From a virus, in the IMG/VR virus record IMGVR_UViG_3300040751_004835, positions 1 to 64,000 of that record: a stretch of DNA of 64,000 bases; one strand, 5' to 3'. The stretch's first letter is position 1. The number at the start of each line of letters is the position of its first letter. Positions 5,506 to 54,546 of this stretch are shown here, piece by piece. The notes under the pieces were generated by a model. The model was given only the letters and a program-made list of their open reading frames with translations. It did no database searches and was not told where the DNA came from. The translations under genes and the position numbers were made by a program.

Positions 5506-6672
5506 ATGAACACGCCAGAAAACACAGATCAAATCCAAGAGGAATTTAACTGGAACATTCCTAACCGTAGAACAATCAACAGAGACATAGAGGTTTTTGA
5601 TGATTCAAAAGTTTATTGTAGGGAAGATTATGCACAGTCTCTCTACTACCAAATGGCTGAAAGCCTAAAGGGGGTAAACTCTTCTAAGGATTTGAAAACT
5701 GGAAATGCTTATGATAGCACCATTACCACTTTAACTGATAAGCATGCTATTGCACAAACTTATGAGGGACAATCGATTTACGTTGATTTAGTAAAAGAAA
5801 GAAAGGATGCAGATAAGCTTGGTATAACTGGAATTGACTTCGAGATTGGCTCTGAAATTCAGACCATTGTTAGAAATGTCAATGGAACTTATTATGGGTC
5901 CGTAATTGACTGCTTCATTGAAACAACTAAGCAAGAATTCTTTGAGCAAATTAAGAAGGAAACATTGGCTTACGAAGCAAGAATTGAGTCGATTAACAAT
6001 GGTGGTTATATTGTGGATGTGCAGGGAATTAAATGTTTCCTCCCAGGTTCGCTTGCAGCTGCTAATAAGATTACTAACTTTGAAGCTTATCTTGGCAAGA
6101 AAATCTACGTCATGATAGACGGGTATGTACAAAAGAAAGACATTTTTGTAGTTTCTTACAAGAAGTACCTGAACAAGATTATGGATGAAAAAATCCAAGA
6201 GCTTGATCTCACCAAAAAATATAAAGGGTACGTTACAGGAACCTCAAGCTTTGGAGTATTTGTTGAATGGGAAGACATCTACACAGGGCTAATACACAAA
6301 ACTGAATTTGACAACCAAAAGGTTGAAGGATTTACAGCAGGTGATGAGATAGAGTTTTATGTTAAGGAAGTTAAGGATGATAATAGGTTAACCCTAACTT
6401 TTGGCGAGCCTGTTGATAAGACCTTGAAAATTTATGATCTTAAAAAGGATCTTGAAGATGGATCTGCCCCAATTTCGAATGCTAAAGTAAAGCACAAAAG
6501 AAAGAACGGAGCTTTGGTTGAGTTACCAGAATTCGGTTTGATTGCAATGATTCCTCAGGGACGTTTAGGTAAAGATCATAAGGGACTTAAAACCGGAGAT
6601 CAAATCCTTGTAACTGTTTATGAGGTTGATTCGGTGATGGGAAAAATATTTGTAGAACCTCTCAATGAGTAA
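5506..6672 (+). CDS. Ribosomal protein S1-like, multiple S1 RNA-binding domains
   Basis: 388 aa with a string of S1-type OB domains. One spans about residues 145-225 (EARIESINNGGYIVDVQGIKC). A canonical one spans about 233-305 (YKGYVTGTSSFGVFVEW, GLIHKTE, then AGDEIEFYVKEVKDDNRLTLTF). A third spans about 323-387. The N-terminal region (FNWNIPNRRTINRD) has no obvious domain. Host bS1 recruits mRNA to the 30S subunit, and phage-borne bS1 homologues are known among large phages. It is preceded by a GATATATA element and sits inside the baseplate region, so it is probably made with the structural proteins. It could help translate leaders that lack a Shine-Dalgarno sequence, or compete with host S1. 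The S1 fold is secure; the ribosomal role is inferred. Confidence 0.85.
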   Translation: MNTPENTDQIQEEFNWNIPNRRTINRDIEVFDDSKVYCREDYAQSLYYQMAESLKGVNSSKDLKTGNAYDSTITTLTDKHAIAQTYEGQSIYVDLVKERKDADKLGITGIDFEIGSEIQTIVRNVNGTYYGSVIDCFIETTKQEFFEQIKKETLAYEARIESINNGGYIVDVQGIKCFLPGSLAAANKITNFEAYLGKKIYVMIDGYVQKKDIFVVSYKKYLNKIMDEKIQELDLTKKYKGYVTGTSSFGVFVEWEDIYTGLIHKTEFDNQKVEGFTAGDEIEFYVKEVKDDNRLTLTFGEPVDKTLKIYDLKKDLEDGSAPISNAKVKHKRKNGALVELPEFGLIAMIPQGRLGKDHKGLKTGDQILVTVYEVDSVMGKIFVEPLNE

Positions 6673-8059
6673 TACCCACTTTGACAAACGACAGTTACTT
6701 TCCTCTGCCTTATTAGGTTTTGAGTTTGAATTCTTCTCTGAGATGGTCAGAGGAAGGATAACTGAATCTTTGTCCAAACTTTTGGGTAAAAAGATAATCT
6801 TAACAAACAAGTATCATTCTAAAATACCAGTTAGTAGCGAGGTATTTAAGCTCGAGCCTGACTATTCTGGTGGTGGAAAAATGAATGAACTTGTAACCGG
6901 TCCTCTTCCATATGCTGAGGCTATACCAGTTTTGATTAAGGTTCTAAAATGGATTGATGAAAATGGATGGACCACTGATAAATGTGCATTCCAATTTTCT
7001 CTTAGCTTCGACAAATTTGATAGATCTATAAAAAGAATGGAGGAGCTTGATAGACTTCAATTCATTCTTGGTATTGATGAGGGCCTAATTTATTCTAAGT
7101 TCGGAAATAGAAAGAATAATGTTTACTCCAGATCTATTAAAAAGGTAGTTCCAAGAAACAGATTTTCTATTCTCGAGAATGTGTCTCACATAGATCCAAA
7201 ACTATTCAGGATACCTGATGAAAAATACTATGGTGCTAATTTTACAAAGGTTCCAAATGGGTACATTGAAATAAGATATCTTGGTGGCAAAGATTACCAG
7301 AAAAAGATCACAGCTATTCGTGATGTGATAGACTATGTGGTACTTTACACTTATGATATCCTTTCTGGTAGAAGAACATACACTAAGACCGACCTTGAAA
7401 ACCTTAAGTCAATGATGAAGGAATATTCTAAGGTTGTAAGGAGTTTTTCTGACCCGGAGGCTTTTTTCATGAATTTCCCTGACTTCCACCTTCTGGTTGA
7501 TCTAAAGGGTTATCTGGAAAACATCAAGACATACTTCCCTTATATAAGAGAGAAGGTCTTTGACATTATAGTGGAAGGAAATGTGAAGAATGGTTTCTTC
7601 AATTATGACACAACTAACGGAAGGTTCCAGCTTAAGGATGCTAAAATCAAAAGCGCTACATACTTAGATAATTTAGATCTTATTAACTGTAAGGTTAGAT
7701 CATCTAAACTTGATAATTGTAGGATATTCAGTTGTGATATTAGAAACAGCGAAATTTATAATTCCGAGGTTTTAAATGGAAACAAGATTTCTAAATCCAA
7801 AATCAAAGACACAAGCGCCGATTTTGGAAATAAGCTTATTGAGTGCTATATTGATTCCCCAGAAAAAATGGTTGATTGTGAAATCACTGGCGGCGTTTTA
7901 AGGAAGGGAGATATTGGAAGAAACGCCGAGGTAAGCAAAGAAACCGAAAAGGCCAAGGACTTTAATGAAATAAGGAAGGGAAGGTTTATTACAGACTCAA
8001 GGTTAAAGAATCTTAATGACCCTATTTCTAGGATGAAGTTTAAAAATCAGAACTACTAA
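6665..8059 (+). CDS. Amidoligase-family enzyme with C-terminal beta-helix repeats
   Basis: The first ~230 residues match the glutamine-synthetase-like amidoligase pattern: LLGFEFEF near residues 17-23 (the ExE strand), NELVTGPLP at about 74-82 (the E-hxx-P motif), CAFQFSLSFDK where the family has GxHVH, and YIEIRYLGG at about 200-208 (the EhR motif). These enzymes ligate carboxylates to amines in an ATP-dependent reaction. The usual His pair of the GxHVH motif is replaced by Gln/Ser here, so activity may be altered. Residues about 325-420 form pentapeptide/right-handed beta-helix-like repeats (LINCKVRSSKLDNCRIFSCD). The gene overlaps the S1-like gene by 8 nt and precedes a virion gene by 1 nt. 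It may be a virion-attached enzyme or a protein/cell-wall-modifying ligase. The fold call is moderate. Confidence 0.6.
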   Translation: MSNTHFDKRQLLSSALLGFEFEFFSEMVRGRITESLSKLLGKKIILTNKYHSKIPVSSEVFKLEPDYSGGGKMNELVTGPLPYAEAIPVLIKVLKWIDENGWTTDKCAFQFSLSFDKFDRSIKRMEELDRLQFILGIDEGLIYSKFGNRKNNVYSRSIKKVVPRNRFSILENVSHIDPKLFRIPDEKYYGANFTKVPNGYIEIRYLGGKDYQKKITAIRDVIDYVVLYTYDILSGRRTYTKTDLENLKSMMKEYSKVVRSFSDPEAFFMNFPDFHLLVDLKGYLENIKTYFPYIREKVFDIIVEGNVKNGFFNYDTTNGRFQLKDAKIKSATYLDNLDLINCKVRSSKLDNCRIFSCDIRNSEIYNSEVLNGNKISKSKIKDTSADFGNKLIECYIDSPEKMVDCEITGGVLRKGDIGRNAEVSKETEKAKDFNEIRKGRFITDSRLKNLNDPISRMKFKNQNY

Positions 8060-8060
8060 A

Positions 8061-8837
8061 ATGACGTTAGAAGAATTAGTACAGGAAATTAAAGATGACC
8101 TTTCAGCAAGCTGTTCGTTGCCTTATAACTTGAATGACGATGAGATTCATAGAATTATCAGAAGGGCAAAGTTGTACATGTACGACAACTACCAATATGC
8201 TGCTGAGGAGAGGGTTTTTGTTCTGGCTAACAATCTTTTTGCTCATGAGGAGTTTAGAAGAACTAGACAAATAAAGCTTCCTGAAAAGATAGTAAGCGTT
8301 TATGATGTCAGAGAAGTTAATGGAATGGGAATAGCAGGAACCCCGGATAGAGATTTCGGAGATTCTAAGTTATTAGGCTCTGAGCTTTTGCTTTCTCCAT
8401 TTACCGGAGACAACTTGGTTTATAGAACCGTTATGTACTCCTACTTTGATCTAGCACAAGCTTATCTGCTCCCAACTTTTGCTTTCAAGTTCAATAAGAA
8501 CAATAAAAAGCTAACTATCTTAGGACGTGATCCAAATAGATCTGGATCCGGCGGGGTAGGAACAGGATACAACCAAAACGGTATGGATGTTGCAGTTAGG
8601 TGCTTTATAGCTATTGATGACTACGAGCTTTATGACGACGAACTTTTTGTCAGGTACTGTTTGGCAAAGGCTAAAATTTCACTATCTAGAGTGTTAAGTG
8701 CATTCGATTATAACCTACCAGGAGGAGTCAGGGTAAACACTTCGGAATTAAGATCTGACGGCGAAAGAGAACTTCAAGAGGTAATGGATATGATCAACGG
8801 AGAGAACACTCCTTCTTATTTCTTACAGTGGAATTAA
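8061..8837 (+). CDS. Virion-associated protein of unknown function
   Basis: 258 aa, no recognised domain. The N-terminus (MTLEELVQEIKDDL) and the block DDEIHRIIRRAKLYMYDN are helical. The C-terminal DDELFVRYCLAKAKISLSRVL and GERELQEVMDMING form another helical module around a Gly-rich loop (RSGSGGVGTGYNQ). This layout is seen in small neck or baseplate adaptor proteins of myoviruses, but the assignment rests on position just before gp25. Confidence 0.6.
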   Translation: MTLEELVQEIKDDLSASCSLPYNLNDDEIHRIIRRAKLYMYDNYQYAAEERVFVLANNLFAHEEFRRTRQIKLPEKIVSVYDVREVNGMGIAGTPDRDFGDSKLLGSELLLSPFTGDNLVYRTVMYSYFDLAQAYLLPTFAFKFNKNNKKLTILGRDPNRSGSGGVGTGYNQNGMDVAVRCFIAIDDYELYDDELFVRYCLAKAKISLSRVLSAFDYNLPGGVRVNTSELRSDGERELQEVMDMINGENTPSYFLQWN

Positions 8838-8868: not shown

Positions 8869-9240
8869 ATGATAGAGATTTATAACCGAGATCCAGGAGA
8901 CCCTAATTACAAAGAAAATGTTGTTGAGATAACTCAACCCGTTGAAATTTGTGTGGGACAGCTTAAAATGCTGCTTCTTACAAATAAGGGTGAGGTATTG
9001 GGTGATCCCAAATTTGGAATAAATCTAGAGGAGCTGGTTTTCAGTTTAGAATTGTCTGAAACAACTCTTAGAGAGGAAATTGACAAGGGACTTAGATTCT
9101 ATGTTCCTCTCTTTGCACAAATTGGTGGCTATTTTGATTTGAAATTTTATCAAGGGACGGAGAGAGATATTTGCCTTTTGGATTTTTATATCCCAAGCTC
9201 TGGCAACGAAAGCCCTTTAATATCACTGAAAGTAAGTTAA
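8869..9240 (+). CDS. gp25-like baseplate wedge protein (GPW/gp25 family)
   Basis: 123 aa, the usual length of gp25/gpW-type baseplate proteins. The signature block is LKMLLLTNKGEVLGDPKFG followed by NLEELVF at about residues 33-57, with a C-terminal beta segment. In T4 gp25 clamps the wedge core with gp6 and primes sheath assembly. The next gene, 4 nt downstream, is the gp6-like wedge protein, matching the conserved gp25-gp6 order. Confidence 0.88.
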   Translation: MIEIYNRDPGDPNYKENVVEITQPVEICVGQLKMLLLTNKGEVLGDPKFGINLEELVFSLELSETTLREEIDKGLRFYVPLFAQIGGYFDLKFYQGTERDICLLDFYIPSSGNESPLISLKVS

Positions 9241-9244
9241 AAAG

Positions 9245-10975
9245 ATGGCCAATAACATTTTTAAGAAAAACAACATCCTTATTAAAGGTCTTTTAGGAGA
9301 TTCTTTTGAATTCCTTCAAAGAACATATAATCAGACGAGGAATGTTTTCACGGTTTCTTCTGCCTGGGGTCAGATCCTTTTTGTCCTTGAAAATTTATCT
9401 CAGCTAATTCTTTACTTCATAGAGGATTCCATCACAGAGCTAAACATGCAAGAAGCTACTAGGAATTATTCAATTAAGAGTTTAGCAAGGATTGCTGGTT
9501 ATGACCCGGTAAGGGGCATGTCAGCCCAAGGAGAAGCAGCAGTTGCCTGGAATTTAAGAGAGGATGATGCTGGTGGAGGAGCAGTTATCTTAAGTAACAA
9601 TCCTAAAATACAGAGTATACAAAATGGATTACCCTATACCCTAATTTTAAACTCCCCATCTGTTAAGGTACCACTTTCACGAGGGAATGCTTTTAATTTC
9701 AAAATTGTGCAGGGTTCTTTTTCTTCCTCAACATTTACTGGAACTGGACAATCGTTGCAGAGCTTTAACTTGCCATCTAAAGCTGGTGCTTACATAGATC
9801 AGTTTTATGTGAATGTATATGTTAATGGTAGCCCTTGGGAAAGGTATGAATCCTTATATGATATCCCGCTTGAGGGTGAAGGATATTTGGTCAAGAGTGG
9901 AATCAGTGAGGGTATAGATATTTATTTTGGAAATTCCAATTTTGGTAAAATCCCACAAGCTGGGAGCATTATTAGAGTTGAATATTTACAGACCTCTGGA
10001 TTCAGTGGGAATCTACAATCGAAAAAGGATACCAAACTCACATATCGTTTCCTCGATAGCGGAACAGACCTTTTTGGAAATAGCGTAAATCTAAATAATT
10101 ACCTTTCTATCGTTGGGGTACTTGATCCAAGCTTTGGAGCAGACCCAGAACCGATTGAACTAACAAGGATAGTAGCTCCTAAAACAAGTAGATCCTATGT
10201 TTTTGCAAACGCTGAAAATTATGAAATCTATTTGCAAAAGCTAAACATATTCTCACAAATACAGGCTTTTTCAACATTTGATGATGAATACCTGGATGAT
10301 GATAACGTAGTTTATATTTTCCTGGTTCCTGATGTAACTATTTCAATGACTTCAAACCAGGATTATTTTGACATCCCACAAACACAGTTTTTACTTACTA
10401 GATCCCAAAAGTTATCCCTATTGAATCTTATTGAAGATTCTGGAAGAATGATTGCTACTACCGTGGTGAAAATTTTGGATGCTGATATTAAAAGGTACAT
10501 TGGAAGTGTATCGATGTCGATCTTTGAGGGTTATGATCCAGAGGTTTTAAAGGATAAAGTTAGAGATAGAATATCTCAATACATGTTAAATCTTAAAAGA
10601 AGGGATAGAATACCAAAATCGGATATTATTGCTTTGATTGAGGGAATTGAGGGTGTTGATTCAGTTTCTTTCTTCTTTGTTGGTGAAGATAATGAAAAAT
10701 ACCACCGTACAGTAGATAACCTTTCTAATGCTTCTTCAGCTCAGCTAAATAGACAAATTGGTCTAGACGATTATGGTGATATTATTATAGGAAGGGGAGA
10801 GCTTATTCTCTTAAGAGGAGGATGGACTGATAGATATGGCACAGTCTACGAAGAAGGCATCGTAAGCGGTAAGCCCTCTGCTTTAAACATTGCTATTACT
10901 AGTATAAACCCAAGAAATTTCTTGAATAATCTGAATGCTCAGACTAAAGCAAAGTTAATGGAAAGTAACAGATAA
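9245..10975 (+). CDS. gp6/baseplate J-like wedge protein
   Basis: 576 aa. The N-terminus has SIKSLARIAGYDPVRGMSAQG, typical of gp6/baseplate J. The centre holds the conserved VKSGISEGIDIYFGN and GSIIRVEYLQTSGFSGNL (about residues 215-260), and the C-terminal third holds the DGYDPEVLKDKVRDRI-type helix (here EGYDPEVLKDKVRDRISQYM) and IALIEGIEGVDSV. gp6 dimers form the inner ring that ties baseplate wedges together. Start 9245 follows the gp25 stop by 4 nt and the next gene by 1 nt, so the set is one operon. Confidence 0.85.
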   Translation: MANNIFKKNNILIKGLLGDSFEFLQRTYNQTRNVFTVSSAWGQILFVLENLSQLILYFIEDSITELNMQEATRNYSIKSLARIAGYDPVRGMSAQGEAAVAWNLREDDAGGGAVILSNNPKIQSIQNGLPYTLILNSPSVKVPLSRGNAFNFKIVQGSFSSSTFTGTGQSLQSFNLPSKAGAYIDQFYVNVYVNGSPWERYESLYDIPLEGEGYLVKSGISEGIDIYFGNSNFGKIPQAGSIIRVEYLQTSGFSGNLQSKKDTKLTYRFLDSGTDLFGNSVNLNNYLSIVGVLDPSFGADPEPIELTRIVAPKTSRSYVFANAENYEIYLQKLNIFSQIQAFSTFDDEYLDDDNVVYIFLVPDVTISMTSNQDYFDIPQTQFLLTRSQKLSLLNLIEDSGRMIATTVVKILDADIKRYIGSVSMSIFEGYDPEVLKDKVRDRISQYMLNLKRRDRIPKSDIIALIEGIEGVDSVSFFFVGEDNEKYHRTVDNLSNASSAQLNRQIGLDDYGDIIIGRGELILLRGGWTDRYGTVYEEGIVSGKPSALNIAITSINPRNFLNNLNAQTKAKLMESNR

Positions 10976-41926: not shown

Positions 41927-42172
41927 ATGAAGAAGTTCTCAGATTTAACCAAAATTAACGAAATGAAGTACGGTCAGCCAATGTACGGCGAGGATGACCT
42001 AAAGCAACATATGAAAGATCTTTTAGTCGCTGCATCTGGCAATGACCAGAGAGTGTTAAACGATATTGTTGATTGCTTAACTGATGATCAGATGAAAAAG
42101 TGCTATGACAAACTGATCAACGATTACAACTACACTGGAAAGAAAGGTGAGGTTGTAAAGCCTAATATGTAA
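41927..42172 (+). CDS. Small protein with candidate capsid-targeting N-terminus
   Basis: 81 aa. It begins MKKFSDLTKINE then MKYG: an F-x-x-(L/F) helix followed by I-N-E, which matches the T4-type prohead-protease cleavage pattern (L/I)-x-E. The rest is helical and acidic/basic mixed (VLNDIVDCLTDDQMKKCYDK). No family recognised. It has its own GATATATA box and is followed by a strong terminator, so it is a single-gene unit. An internal-capsid-protein role is inferred. Confidence 0.6.
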   Translation: MKKFSDLTKINEMKYGQPMYGEDDLKQHMKDLLVAASGNDQRVLNDIVDCLTDDQMKKCYDKLINDYNYTGKKGEVVKPNM

Positions 42173-42257: not shown

Positions 42258-42929
42258 TTGAAAACACTAGTCGGAATAGATTTTTCCCTCAATTCACCAG
42301 CATTTTGTATTTTAAGAGAAAACCAATTTACTTGGGGTTCCCTAACTAGGAGCGACCGGACTGCGGAATCCCTTAAGAAAAATACTAAAAAACCTTACTA
42401 TGTTTTATCTGAAGACAAAACGGAAGACTATGTTCTTATGTTTATGTCAAAGGATAAAATGCCAGAAGACTACTCGGAAAGGGAAAGAATAAAGATAGAT
42501 TATTTCCAGGAGCTCGTTGATGAATTTTGGTCTGAAATAGAAAATATCTGTGCAGGTGATGACATCATTGTAGCTATGGAAGGACTAAGTTTTGCCTCTA
42601 ATGGTAATGCTTTGATTGATATCTCTATGGCCACAGCTCTACTCCGTAAGAAGATAGTTGACCACACAGGTAGCGATAATTTCTACGTTTATTCGCCAAC
42701 TTCTATAAAGAAGTTCGCTTTTAAGGGAAATGCAAAAAAGCACGAACTTTATAATTCACTTCTTGATCGCAAATTTCCAGAAACTAATTTAGGGTCTTTC
42801 ACTAGTATTTTAGAAGAAAATAAGGACGAATGGATAACTCCCTCCGGTAATGTAAACAAGCCATTGGATGATATTATAGATTCGACCTGGATATGTTTAT
42901 TTTTATATGACTCAATCAAAGAAGGTTAA
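42258..42929 (+). CDS. RuvC-like (RNase H fold) resolvase/nuclease
   Basis: 223 aa. The RNase H fold appears from the first strand LVGIDFSLNSPAFCIL (catalytic Asp about residue 8), then VAMEGLSFASNGNALIDIS (catalytic Glu, about 106), the helix AKKHELYNSLL with Lys, and the C-terminal acidic pair PLDDIIDSTW near 206-213. This is the D-E-D-D pattern of phage RuvC-like Holliday-junction resolvases. The start is a TTG at 42258: no in-frame ATG lies upstream, and the first catalytic strand begins only four codons later. It overlaps the next gene by 23 nt and so heads the glycan-type operon. Confidence 0.75.
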   Translation: MKTLVGIDFSLNSPAFCILRENQFTWGSLTRSDRTAESLKKNTKKPYYVLSEDKTEDYVLMFMSKDKMPEDYSERERIKIDYFQELVDEFWSEIENICAGDDIIVAMEGLSFASNGNALIDISMATALLRKKIVDHTGSDNFYVYSPTSIKKFAFKGNAKKHELYNSLLDRKFPETNLGSFTSILEENKDEWITPSGNVNKPLDDIIDSTWICLFLYDSIKEG

Positions 42930-43638
42930 CATTCTTATTCCTCTCGGAGGTGCTGGAAGGAGATTCAGCGACGCTGGATACTTACAGATAAAGCCATTTA
43001 TAGACGTCAGCGGAGAAACGATGATTAGGTCTGTGATCAAAAACCTAAATCATCAAGATGCACACTTTGTATTTGTGATAAACGAGGAATATATTTCTCC
43101 CACAGAATTTGAATCCCATATATCAGACATGGGAATATCGTTTGAGGTTTTCTCAACCCCAACCCTAACACAAGGACCAGCTTCAACAGTTCTCTTTGCA
43201 AGTCAGTCGATTGATAACGATTTACCCCTTATTGTTGTTAACTGTGATCAGATTATTCTGGATTTCAATCTGGACTTCATTTTAGATTTTGCAAGAACTA
43301 CGGGGTGTGATGGATTGTTGGGATGTTTTCTTTCCTCTTCTAAAAAGAACAGCTATGTTAAGTTAGATCCAAACGGAGAGGTCTGTGATGTGAAGGAAAA
43401 AATTGTGATTTCCAACATTGCTACTAACGGGTTACATTTTTGGAAGCACGGCAAATACTTTGTAGAAAGTGCGGAACAAATGATAGCAGCAAACGATCGA
43501 TATAATAATGAGTTCTACGTTGCACCTACCTACAATTACATGATAAAAAGTGGAAAGAAAATATTGCCCTTCTTCTATAACCTTCACTTTCCGATAGGTA
43601 CCCCAGAGGACCTGGATAAATTTTTAAAGTTGGTTTAG
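42907..43638 (+). CDS. Sugar nucleotidyltransferase (NTP_transferase family)
   Basis: 243 aa, one Rossmann-like domain. ILIPLGGAGRRFSDAGYLQI then KPFIDV (about residues 9-34) is the nucleotide-binding GGxGxR...KP signature; VVNCDQIILDF near residue 112 carries the metal-binding Asp; FPIGTPEDLDKFL at the end is typical of this family. It is expected to activate a sugar phosphate or similar as an NDP derivative. It is short compared with GlmU or RmlA, like the small domain used in capsule loci. It overlaps the resolvase gene and is followed by a cupin gene after 3 nt. Confidence 0.85.
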   Translation: MTQSKKVNILIPLGGAGRRFSDAGYLQIKPFIDVSGETMIRSVIKNLNHQDAHFVFVINEEYISPTEFESHISDMGISFEVFSTPTLTQGPASTVLFASQSIDNDLPLIVVNCDQIILDFNLDFILDFARTTGCDGLLGCFLSSSKKNSYVKLDPNGEVCDVKEKIVISNIATNGLHFWKHGKYFVESAEQMIAANDRYNNEFYVAPTYNYMIKSGKKILPFFYNLHFPIGTPEDLDKFLKLV

Positions 43639-43641
43639 TTT

Positions 43642-43965
43642 ATGGAAGTTTATAGAATTGAAGATATGGAGGGAGGTTGGTATGCTGGAGATTTCTCCCC
43701 AGTAGCTTACCAAACTAGTGATTTTGAGATTTGTTATAAAAAGCACTTCAAGGGCGAAGAGTGGCCAAAACATTACCATAAGGAAGCGGATGAAATAAAC
43801 TTCCTCAGATCGGGTAAAATGATTATACAAGGACGGGAATTAAATTCGGGGGATGTGTTTATTCTAAGGAAAGATGAAATTGCTGACCCCGTATTTTTGG
43901 AAGACTGTGAAGTTTTTATAGTTAAGACCCCCTCGGTTCCTGGTGATAAATTTGTAATTGAATGA
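43642..43965 (+). CDS. Cupin-domain protein
   Basis: 107 aa, a single cupin barrel. Motif 1 is WPKHYHKEADEINFLRSGKM (H-x-H...E...G pattern), and motif 2 follows as ELNSGDVFILRKDEIADP. It may be a sugar isomerase/epimerase or a small metal-binding sensor. Its stop overlaps the RuBisCO-like start (ATGA), so the two are translationally coupled, and the cupin is likely to act on the same metabolite. Confidence 0.8.
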   Translation: MEVYRIEDMEGGWYAGDFSPVAYQTSDFEICYKKHFKGEEWPKHYHKEADEINFLRSGKMIIQGRELNSGDVFILRKDEIADPVFLEDCEVFIVKTPSVPGDKFVIE

Positions 43966-45197
43966 TAAGCATTTTTAAAAATAAGGCGGATTTCGATACA
44001 TCCCAGTATTTTATAGTCAAATACTTTTTGGAAGCTAAAACTTCTTTGAGAGAAGCTTCCTGGAATTTGGCTATAGGTCAAAGTATAGGTAACCCGAATA
44101 ATAGGAGCGAGTGGGAAACCGATGAGATGTTTGAAAATCACAGTTGCTTTATTCTTGCAAACGAAGAAGATCTTGCCCAACTAAAAGAGGGCGAGATCGA
44201 GATAGCTTTTCCTCTAGCAAATCTTAATTTGGAAGAAGACGGGATCTCTCAAATACTTTGTCATATAGCTGGTGGTCAGGTTGACATAGAGGAAGTAAGA
44301 CAATGTCATGTCTTGGACATTTCTTTGCCTGAGGATGCTGAGAGATCATTTTCTTTAAATCCGGCCTATGGTATTGATGGATGGAGGAAATTTAATGGTA
44401 TAAACCAAAGACCTTTCTTAGGTGGAATAGTTAAACCTAAGGTTGGTATGTCTCCCTCTGTTCTTCTCGAAGCTGTGAAGGAAATGGTTTATGGTGGTGT
44501 GAATTTCATCAAAGAGGATGAATTACTTGCTAACCCTTCCCACTGCCCTCTTGAAGAAAGAGTACCTTTGATTTCATCCTGGTTAAAAGAGAATGCGCCC
44601 AACGTAATTTATTGCTTTTGCATAAATGGTGATAGTCCATATGCCTTAGAAAGAGCAAAATTTGTAGCAGATAACGGTGGGAACGGAATACACATAAACG
44701 TGTGGAGTGGACTGGGAATTTATCGTGCTATTAGAAAGCAAAATCCAAATCTCTGGATACATTTCCAAAAGAGCGGAGATAAATTCTTTACTGACCGTAG
44801 GGCGCCAAACCACATTTACTGGCCGGTTTTGTGCAAGATCGCTGGATGGTCTGGAGTCGATTCGATCCATGCAGGAATGATCGGCGGTTATATGAGCCAA
44901 GATGAGCAGGAAATAAAAGATACCTTACAAACCCTTTGGAATTATAACATTGTTCCTGCTTTAAGCTGTGGTATGCATCCAGGGCTTGTTGAGTATATTA
45001 ATACAACAATAGGAAGCTTCGATTGGATGGCAAACGTTGGTGGTGCTATGCATGGACACCCTCAGGGGACTAGGACTGGTGCCTTGGCAATGAGACAGTC
45101 TATCGATGGAGATCACGATCAACCTGAATATAAAGCAGCAATAGAAAAATGGGGTAACAAATGTTTCTCTGAAGATCTAGACTATCGAATATTCTGA
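43962..45197 (+). CDS. RuBisCO-like protein (form IV-type), large-subunit fold
   Basis: 411 aa, full length for form IV/III proteins. RPFLGGIVKPKVGMSP gives K158 and K160 at the positions of K175 and K177. GGVNFIKEDE gives K184, D186 and E187, the positions of carbamylated K201 and metal ligands D203/E204. H303 (DSIHAG) matches H327; S335 (ALSCG) matches S379; NVGGAMHGHPQG holds the phosphate-binding glycines. But the HRAMH site reads HFQKSGD, so H294, R295 and H298 are Q, K and D; loop-6 K334 is Y310; and N123 is apparently Gly. Metal binding and enolisation look possible, carboxylation does not. Form IV enzymes include enolases, isomerases and decarboxylases of sugar phosphates. It sits between cupin and GDPD-like genes in a glycan-type operon. 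The fold is secure; the substrate is unknown. Confidence 0.88.
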   Translation: MISIFKNKADFDTSQYFIVKYFLEAKTSLREASWNLAIGQSIGNPNNRSEWETDEMFENHSCFILANEEDLAQLKEGEIEIAFPLANLNLEEDGISQILCHIAGGQVDIEEVRQCHVLDISLPEDAERSFSLNPAYGIDGWRKFNGINQRPFLGGIVKPKVGMSPSVLLEAVKEMVYGGVNFIKEDELLANPSHCPLEERVPLISSWLKENAPNVIYCFCINGDSPYALERAKFVADNGGNGIHINVWSGLGIYRAIRKQNPNLWIHFQKSGDKFFTDRRAPNHIYWPVLCKIAGWSGVDSIHAGMIGGYMSQDEQEIKDTLQTLWNYNIVPALSCGMHPGLVEYINTTIGSFDWMANVGGAMHGHPQGTRTGALAMRQSIDGDHDQPEYKAAIEKWGNKCFSEDLDYRIF

Positions 45198-52632: not shown

Positions 52633-54546
52633 ATGGCGGGAATAAATCACTTATACGACATTTATAATAAGAAGGGATCTGATTTTGTTAATCAGCTTTT
52701 TAATCGTTATGTAACAATTAACGAAAAGATGGACGGTTCAGCCTTCTCTTTTGAGAGGGATAAGGAATCTGGTAATTTCCGTTTTTATAGGAGAGACCAA
52801 AGAAATCCTATAACTCTAGTAGATAGGACGCTCATGAAATATTATGAGAAGCCAATCCAGTATATCGAATCTCTTCCACCAAACATACTTGAAAAAATCC
52901 CCAGAGGATGGAGATTTGGACTTGAGTATTTTTCAAACACCAAACCCGTAGAGATTTCATATGATAGATTACCAAAGAATAATCTGATTCTCTCCTATAT
53001 CCACAAAATGGGTACTGGCGGTAAGATAGAAAGTACTATACAGGATAAGGAAGAATTGGATAATTGGGCAGATCTGATTGGAGTTGAAAGACCGCCAATC
53101 GTTTTCCAGGGGGTGTTGGACGAAGATCAGAAATCTGAGCTTATGGAGTTTTTGAACACGCCGTTCAAAGATCTTGTTGAAAGGTTCAAAACACAATCTT
53201 TTGTTAGGTTTGTTATTAAGACCTTAAACCCGGATTTAACTAAAACTGCTCTTAACGACGACCTAGATAAGGATGTCGAGGGTATAGTTTTTAGATTTGG
53301 AGAGCTCGATGGAGATAGTGATACTATATTAGCCAAAATGGTGGATCCTATATTCACTGAAATAGCTAAGCAAAAGTTTGCTGACAAAAAGAGTAAAAAG
53401 CCTTCGGATTTTCTTGGAATCACATTGCTTGATGTGATGAATTTCATTTTGGAAAAAGATCTTTCTGAATTTGAAGTTGAAGGTGAGTCTGAAGACGAGA
53501 GATACATTTCCTTTATGGGAGACGTATTTGTTAAATTCCTGGATGAATATGAGGAGAAGTATAAGGGTACTGATTTTGAGGAACCTGATTACTTGAAACG
53601 GGATGAATTCAGACTGAATAAGGAAAAGATTAAAGACAGAAGAGTTCTTAAATATGTTGAGAAGGATGACTCATTTGAGTCTTTATTTAAACTCATCCTT
53701 AATTCCTTTAGAAAGATAAAAACTAGAGCTGGAGGTATCATCACCTCTGGGATGAAAGATCAGATGAATCTTTTAATCAAGGATATCAAGGATTATATTA
53801 AAAAACCAGAGAAGAAAGTAAACGAATCAAGGTTTATTAGCTTTGGTGAATTCAGAAAGGAAAACTCTCCTTCGGTTGAATATCTACAGGAGGAAGACGA
53901 TTCAGATTCAAGTGATGATCCATTCTTCTCATACCAAGAATTTATTAGCAAACTAGAAACCATTGATAACGAGGAGATCCCGGCTGAGGTAGAAATGCTC
54001 AAGGAGAAAGATACGGAGGAAAGAAAACCAGTTAATGTCATAATGGGTAGATTCCAGCCTTTCCACCAGGGACATCTTAAGATGGCGAAGGATCTCATGG
54101 AGAAAAACGATCTCCCATCTTTTGTTGTTGTGGTTTATCCTGGACACAACAAGTCTGGAAAATCCCCATTTGATGAGGAGGCAATCAAAAGATATATGGA
54201 TGCAATAGTTGCTAATAACGAGGAGATTGAAGGATATGTCCTTGCTACAAGAGGTCTTCTTGGGTCTGCTATTGCAAGACTAATAGACATGGGATATGAC
54301 CCTAAGTTAATTGGTGCAGGCCCCGATCGAATAGACGACTACACTAAGCAGATAGACTATGTTAAGATGTCTGATATTAAGGACAAAATAAGTGATGACC
54401 TTGGTATTGTAGAAACACCAAGGGTAACGAGCGGTACTGAGGTTAGACAAGCTATGAAGGACCAAGACTTTTCTAAGTTCAAAAAGATGGTTCCAAAAGA
54501 GGTATCTAATCTTTACAACGACCTTATTACAAGCGTCAGGGACTGA
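52633..54546 (+). CDS. Ligase-NMN adenylyltransferase fusion
   Basis: 637 aa with two enzymes. Residues 1-240 are an ATP-dependent nucleic acid ligase core: motif I EKMDGS with nucleophile K32, FGLEYF (E98), DVEGIVFRF (E216) and LAKMVD (K235). Residues 470-610 are a nucleotidyltransferase of the NMN/cytidylyl type: MGRFQPFHQGHLKMA carries HxGH (H478-H481) and TSGTEVRQAM the terminal (S/T)-x-x-x-x-R motif. Between them is a helical linker with two targeting-like helices (FISFGEFRKE at 401-410, YQEFISKLE at 434-442). The ligase may seal RNA or DNA, while the other half may make NAD from NMN or activate another substrate. The assignment of each half is good; the joint function is inferred. Confidence 0.8.
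   Translation: MAGINHLYDIYNKKGSDFVNQLFNRYVTINEKMDGSAFSFERDKESGNFRFYRRDQRNPITLVDRTLMKYYEKPIQYIESLPPNILEKIPRGWRFGLEYFSNTKPVEISYDRLPKNNLILSYIHKMGTGGKIESTIQDKEELDNWADLIGVERPPIVFQGVLDEDQKSELMEFLNTPFKDLVERFKTQSFVRFVIKTLNPDLTKTALNDDLDKDVEGIVFRFGELDGDSDTILAKMVDPIFTEIAKQKFADKKSKKPSDFLGITLLDVMNFILEKDLSEFEVEGESEDERYISFMGDVFVKFLDEYEEKYKGTDFEEPDYLKRDEFRLNKEKIKDRRVLKYVEKDDSFESLFKLILNSFRKIKTRAGGIITSGMKDQMNLLIKDIKDYIKKPEKKVNESRFISFGEFRKENSPSVEYLQEEDDSDSSDDPFFSYQEFISKLETIDNEEIPAEVEMLKEKDTEERKPVNVIMGRFQPFHQGHLKMAKDLMEKNDLPSFVVVVYPGHNKSGKSPFDEEAIKRYMDAIVANNEEIEGYVLATRGLLGSAIARLIDMGYDPKLIGAGPDRIDDYTKQIDYVKMSDIKDKISDDLGIVETPRVTSGTEVRQAMKDQDFSKFKKMVPKEVSNLYNDLITSVRD

Follow-up and report, generated by a model that had tools for sequence, protein, structure and literature searches.

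Amidoligases are common in bacteriophages, where they usually belong to non-structural operons together with GATase, ATP-grasp and AIG2 genes, so the occurrence of such an enzyme in a phage is not in itself new. Operons of this kind have been found in the phages tf, CW02 and phi14:2, and a shorter form with a GATase is present in Salgado. In the related enzyme glutamine synthetase (GS), the first histidine of a conserved motif is a metal ligand and the second touches the ATP phosphate. Two cultured phages, both jumbo phages, carry relatives of the protein described here: AUZ94978 of Agrobacterium phage Atu_ph07 and gp125 of Salicola phage SCTP-2, each annotated as hypothetical. AUZ94978 is 23% identical to our protein, carries an H-x-N motif (GFHINIG) and is covered by the family profile over the enzyme part only; the published account of the Atu_ph07 virion gives 131 proteins. 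A search of the available literature retrieved no paper that deals with this protein family or with phage-tail amidoligases.

The window analysed here is a stretch of 64,000 nucleotides from a virus record of 91,374 bases (IMGVR_UViG_3300040751_004835). An open reading frame of 464 amino acids is located at 6665–8059 (+). Judged by profile comparisons and a predicted model, its product combines a GS-fold amidoligase of PF12224 (Amidoligase_2) type with a C-terminal pentapeptide-repeat β-helix. The enzyme domain occupies approximately residues 1–305 (6665–7579, +), and the right-handed β-helix spans 7592–7924 (+), ending in a conserved GGVLRKGDIG segment (7889–7918).

Searched by itself against Pfam, the window protein scores 19 bits for Amidoligase_2 (E 1.4e-3), below the cut-off of 22, and a single-sequence search yielded chance-level matches only in the PDB (phmmer) and zero matches in PHROGs. 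Relatives match PF12224 with E-values as good as 5.4e-7, and those of the same clade in G001–G003 clear the gathering cut-off, whereas the window protein does not. Profile–profile comparison (hhalign) with five known phage amidoligases, those of Salgado, CW02, tf, Atu_ph07 and phi14:2, returned 97% probability and an E-value of 7.7e-11, with motif-by-motif agreement. An AlphaFold2 model computed from an input of 54 rows has a mean pLDDT of 85.5 and a pTM of 0.79. The top PDB matches of this model in Foldseek are glutamine synthetases (E 6.4e-6), followed by γ-glutamylcysteine synthetase and pentapeptide proteins; global TM-scores against the PDB are low, as one may expect when the query has two domains. 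Among viral structures, a protein from an uncultured phage ranks first (TM 0.84); it is uncharacterised and shares the architecture of the window protein. Named phage amidoligases come next, at E 1.4e-14 and weaker. The initial annotation had proposed a GS-like amidoligase and had named a fold unlike glutamine synthetase as the finding that would overturn the proposal; the predicted model resembles glutamine synthetase and the proposal stands, borne out by the model with its Foldseek matches, by PF12224 in relatives and by the profile–profile match.

The conservation of the presumed active site is very high. An alignment of 137 distinct near-full-length relatives from phage contigs, duplicates removed, contains 32 columns with at least 99% identity, 30 of which lie within the enzyme domain. 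These near-fixed columns include G18, E20, E22, D66, S68, E75, E139, R149, Y154, K187, Y188, N192, E202 and R204. The GFEFEF motif (6716–6733, +), whose G18-x-E20-x-E22 would supply metal ligands, has G, E and E in all 135 sequences that cover it. In three further stretches the residues named are retained in 137 of 137: EPDYSGG...NELVTGPLP (6854–6910, +), with the presumed metal or substrate residues D66, S68 and E75; RKNNVYSRS (7109–7135, +), with R149 and Y154, the counterpart of RRxNxYC in known phage amidoligases; and KYYGANF...YIEIRYLGG (7223–7288, +), with N192, E202 and R204. The five known phage amidoligases have 11 invariant positions in common, seven of which (E, D, S, E, N, E, R) fall exactly on E22, D66, S68, E75, N192, E202 and R204. 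An eighth, an arginine, lands in the basic pair R149–K150, and an invariant histidine aligns to position 110; as for the last two, one glycine is substituted and one Asn lies beyond the aligned region. By this comparison, the histidine is the sole catalytic-motif residue missing from the clade of the window protein. Where dS could be estimated, dN/dS is ∼0.01–0.08 in the enzyme domain and 0.005–0.22 in the repeat domain, figures that are rough because dS is often saturated. As far as these ratios allow it to be read, the family is under purifying selection, and values this low (about 0.01–0.2) make decay unlikely.

The histidine motif is replaced by CAFQFS (6983–7000, +), with Q110 and S112 in the two key positions. 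Across the 137 relatives, positions 110/112 are Q/S in 69, Q/N in one and H/N in 67; sequences of the window's clade, with Q at 110, are referred to as Q-type and those of the other branches, with H-x-N, as H-type. The replacement of GxHVH that had been pointed out in the initial annotation is thus real, and the motifs quoted there occur as written: GFEFEF at residues 18–23, NELVTGPLP at 74–82, CAFQFS at 107–112 and YIEIRY at 200–205. A maximum-likelihood tree needs one H→Q change, and on this tree the Q-x-S of the window's clade is a derived state of single origin. Q110 is fixed across the 70 Q-type sequences. Q-x-N, intermediate between the two active-site states, is also found in a relative encoded at 1569–2834 of L252 (JAJFLM010000187.1), a short contig assigned to a Deltaproteobacteria MAG, and suggests that H→Q came before N→S. 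By analogy with glutamine synthetase, the glutamine could stand in for the first histidine. The GxHxH signature of GS-like amidoligases is absent from the window's clade, which is for that reason described here as a His-less divergent relative and not as a canonical member; it probably works like an amidoligase. One H→Q and N→S switch in an otherwise frozen GS-type site amounts to a natural experiment on which metal-site residues are exchangeable.

The C-terminal third had been described as right-handed β-helix repeats, a description that holds and can be refined to the pentapeptide-repeat (Rfr) type. Residues 330–383 show lag-5 periodicity (p = 2e-4 against shuffles), a relative matches PF13599 (Pentapeptide_4) at E 5.3e-6 while the window protein by itself falls under the cut-off, the family profile matches solved pentapeptide-repeat proteins in the PDB, and the AlphaFold2 model has short strands at five-residue intervals. 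The agreement for the two domains together goes well past what chance would give. G410 and R413 are nearly invariant in the 137-relative alignment. The β-helix probably serves in docking or in forming an oligomer. The idea that the GGVxRxG segment at the C-terminus is a shared module was rejected, as no meaningful match was found among other ORFs.

The family is large. Scans with single sequences and alignments recovered more than 500 relatives in IMG/VR, and in each of 15 phage records (242–735 kb) the family profile found a single full-length copy, a result that speaks to copy number and not to universality because the records were picked for carrying a relative; some of them probably represent the same phages, as duplicates or as fragments. 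The gene is present in all the 634–735 kb records. Weaker profile matches are those of Atu_ph07 (1e-22) and SCTP-2 (3.7e-12), and Lak-A1 has no copy by the same profile. Bacteroidetes hosts were predicted for the 634–735 kb phages by the authors who described them (PMC7162821). Assignment to a bacterial gene family was rejected: among 84,980 bacterial and archaeal genomes, only two small MAG contigs carry the gene and these are plausibly phage.

Taken as a whole, the reading that we favour, and that we consider probable, is that 6665–8059 encodes a catalytically competent ATP- and metal-dependent carboxylate–amine ligase from a tail/neck operon, with the β-helix docking a macromolecular substrate or holding an oligomer. 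Homology, the predicted fold and constraint point to ligase activity and to the use of ATP and metal. Divalent metals would be bound by the E20/E22/E75/E202 cluster and the carboxylate would be phosphorylated by ATP; attack of an amine on the activated carboxylate would then yield an amide, with the β-helix docking a protein or peptide substrate or keeping an oligomer together. In the window's clade, one metal-site His was exchanged for Gln and the Asn two residues on for Ser, the remaining site being kept. The gene would be expressed late. The leading candidates for the substrate are a protein of virion assembly and some part of the translation machinery.

Its neighbours bear on this choice. 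The placement of the gene in a tail operon, part of the initial annotation, is upheld by the genes downstream: a head–tail adaptor/neck gene follows directly (8061–8837, +; phrog_211, E 4.9e-10), and then come a gp25-like baseplate wedge (8869–9240, +; PF04965, E 1.6e-3; phrog_261, E 1.4e-3) and a gp6-like baseplate wedge (9245–10975, +; phrog_219, E 3.7e-27). A gp5-like OB hub protein is encoded at 1965–2639 (+; PF04717 and phrog_430). In loci with enough sequence, the neck gene follows the amidoligase in 66 of 66 Q-type loci versus 22 of 67 H-type loci. The enzyme might modify virion proteins, adding amino acids to neck or tail proteins or cross-linking them during assembly, a reading to which we give a rather low probability. 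It is favoured by the neck-gene synteny that two separate H-type groups (L147/L200–L228 and L194/L195) share with the Q clade, an arrangement implying that the tail-operon position may be ancestral, and by the relative in Atu_ph07, whose gene is two genes away from the portal gene and on the other strand. Against it, most H-type genes are away from tail genes, operon position alone does not name a substrate, and the bS1-like neighbour described below shows that the operon holds genes that are not obviously virion parts. The tail-operon position occurs on both sides of the family tree, and genes that stand alone belong mainly to one large branch; the tail-operon position may be ancestral, but is dispensable. 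Membership of the baseplate and cross-linking of the virion, as first suggested, are conjectural given that the gene stands alone outside the tail operon in that other large branch, and the idea of the enzyme as a baseplate part found no support. Modification of peptidoglycan or of host peptides, the other roles first put forward, is likewise conjectural. A fuller scheme, in which a single-copy amidoligase specific to giant phages modifies or cross-links neck and tail proteins in assembly, guided by the β-helix and using a Gln-based metal site, appears quite unlikely.

Upstream, the amidoligase start is overlapped by 8 bases by the end of a gene for a phage protein resembling ribosomal protein bS1 (5506–6672, +; PF00575, E 2.7e-16; PDB bS1, E 1.5e-11). 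Phage bS1 proteins are already known (PMC7162821, PMC13157829), and related copies of this tail-operon homologue occur in Lak and other giant phages. The bS1-like gene is adjacent in 50 of 55 Q-type loci and 17 of 61 H-type loci; with the neck-gene counts, this places most H-type relatives elsewhere. RimK is an ATP-grasp ligase that ligates an amino acid to S6. By analogy, the amidoligase could modify the translation apparatus, with a ribosomal protein or the bS1-like protein of the phage receiving an amino acid, which we regard as unlikely. This adjacency speaks for the proposal, as does a bS1 homologue in 13 of the 15 giant-phage records with a full-length ligase gene, but the two genes are distant in many giant phages (at 108 kb and at 316 kb in LR745206), Lak-A1 carries bS1 without the ligase, and co-occurrence is explicable by shared descent. 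An obligate partnership with bS1 was rejected, since Lak-A1 has the one without the other and the genes are unlinked in many genomes.

The metal-site His, kept by the known relatives compared and missing in the window's clade, counts against a working enzyme. A long branch (1.34 changes per column) leads to the Q clade, and its length would be compatible with an altered or lost chemistry as well. With the constant neck-gene neighbour of the window's clade (66 of 66 loci), these features lend something to a pseudoenzyme, a GS-fold scaffold in the neck or baseplate structure with the β-helix as a rod and catalysis gone with the His. Such a protein is nonetheless improbable: none of the glutamate ligands, R204, N192 and R149 varies among the 70 Q-type sequences, which is not how a decaying site behaves, a large branch carries the gene outside the tail operon, and Lak-A1 dispenses with it altogether. 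Least credible is a step of a classical phage amidoligase pathway, in which small molecules, nucleotide bases or the cell wall would be modified with the help of GATase, ATP-grasp and AIG2 partners. The shared superfamily and the precedents in tf, CW02, phi14:2 and Salgado speak for it, but the window protein differs in architecture and location, and the Pfam scan of 29 window proteins turned up none of the partner genes.

Other genes of the window deserve mention in their own right. A RuBisCO large-chain-like protein (43962–45197, +; PF00016, E 1.3e-32; PDB form III RuBisCO, E 8.6e-36) retains the KPK and NFIKEDE (K-x-D-E) motifs, and at least 90 relatives were counted in IMG/VR contigs and zero in 50,697 phage records; an NTP-transferase gene (42907–43638) lies close to it. 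In the ORFs at 41927, 50768, 51265 and 54572, the N-terminus carries a short stretch, for instance MKKFSDLTKINE, NIKDFQSFLNENVE or RIQNFSDFLKSSSVNE, that recalls T4 capsid-targeting sequences. The product of 52633–54546 (+) joins an RNA-ligase-like domain to a cytidylyltransferase-like domain at its C-terminus.

The amidoligase-like gene encodes a single-copy, strongly constrained, unannotated putative enzyme that the five largest phage genomes of the set share with hundreds of environmental phage contigs, and the substrate of the putative ligase would expose a modification step special to giant phages. Set beside the known systems, the window protein shares with Amidoligase_2 the fold and the motif order GxExE, D-x-S, E, RR/RK..NxY, N, E-x-R; it differs in lying just under the Pfam cut-off, in the His→Gln change of its clade, in the added β-helix and in having no partner genes among the 29 scanned. 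With glutamine synthetase (8fbp, 3o6x) it shares the catalytic-domain fold, at ∼12% identity and a global TM-score of 0.24 for the two-domain query, and with the histidine pair changed. The 462–735 kb huge phages LR756500–LR756504 and LR745206, whose records are without annotation, encode homologues that are 29–34% identical over ∼90% of the length and contain both domains, but carry the H-x-N motif; in the 634–735 kb genomes the gene is found outside the tail operon. MfpA, AlbG and Qnr are pentapeptide-repeat proteins with the same five-residue right-handed β-helix as the C-terminal third of the window protein, in which, unlike in those proteins, the helix is fused to a ligase domain.
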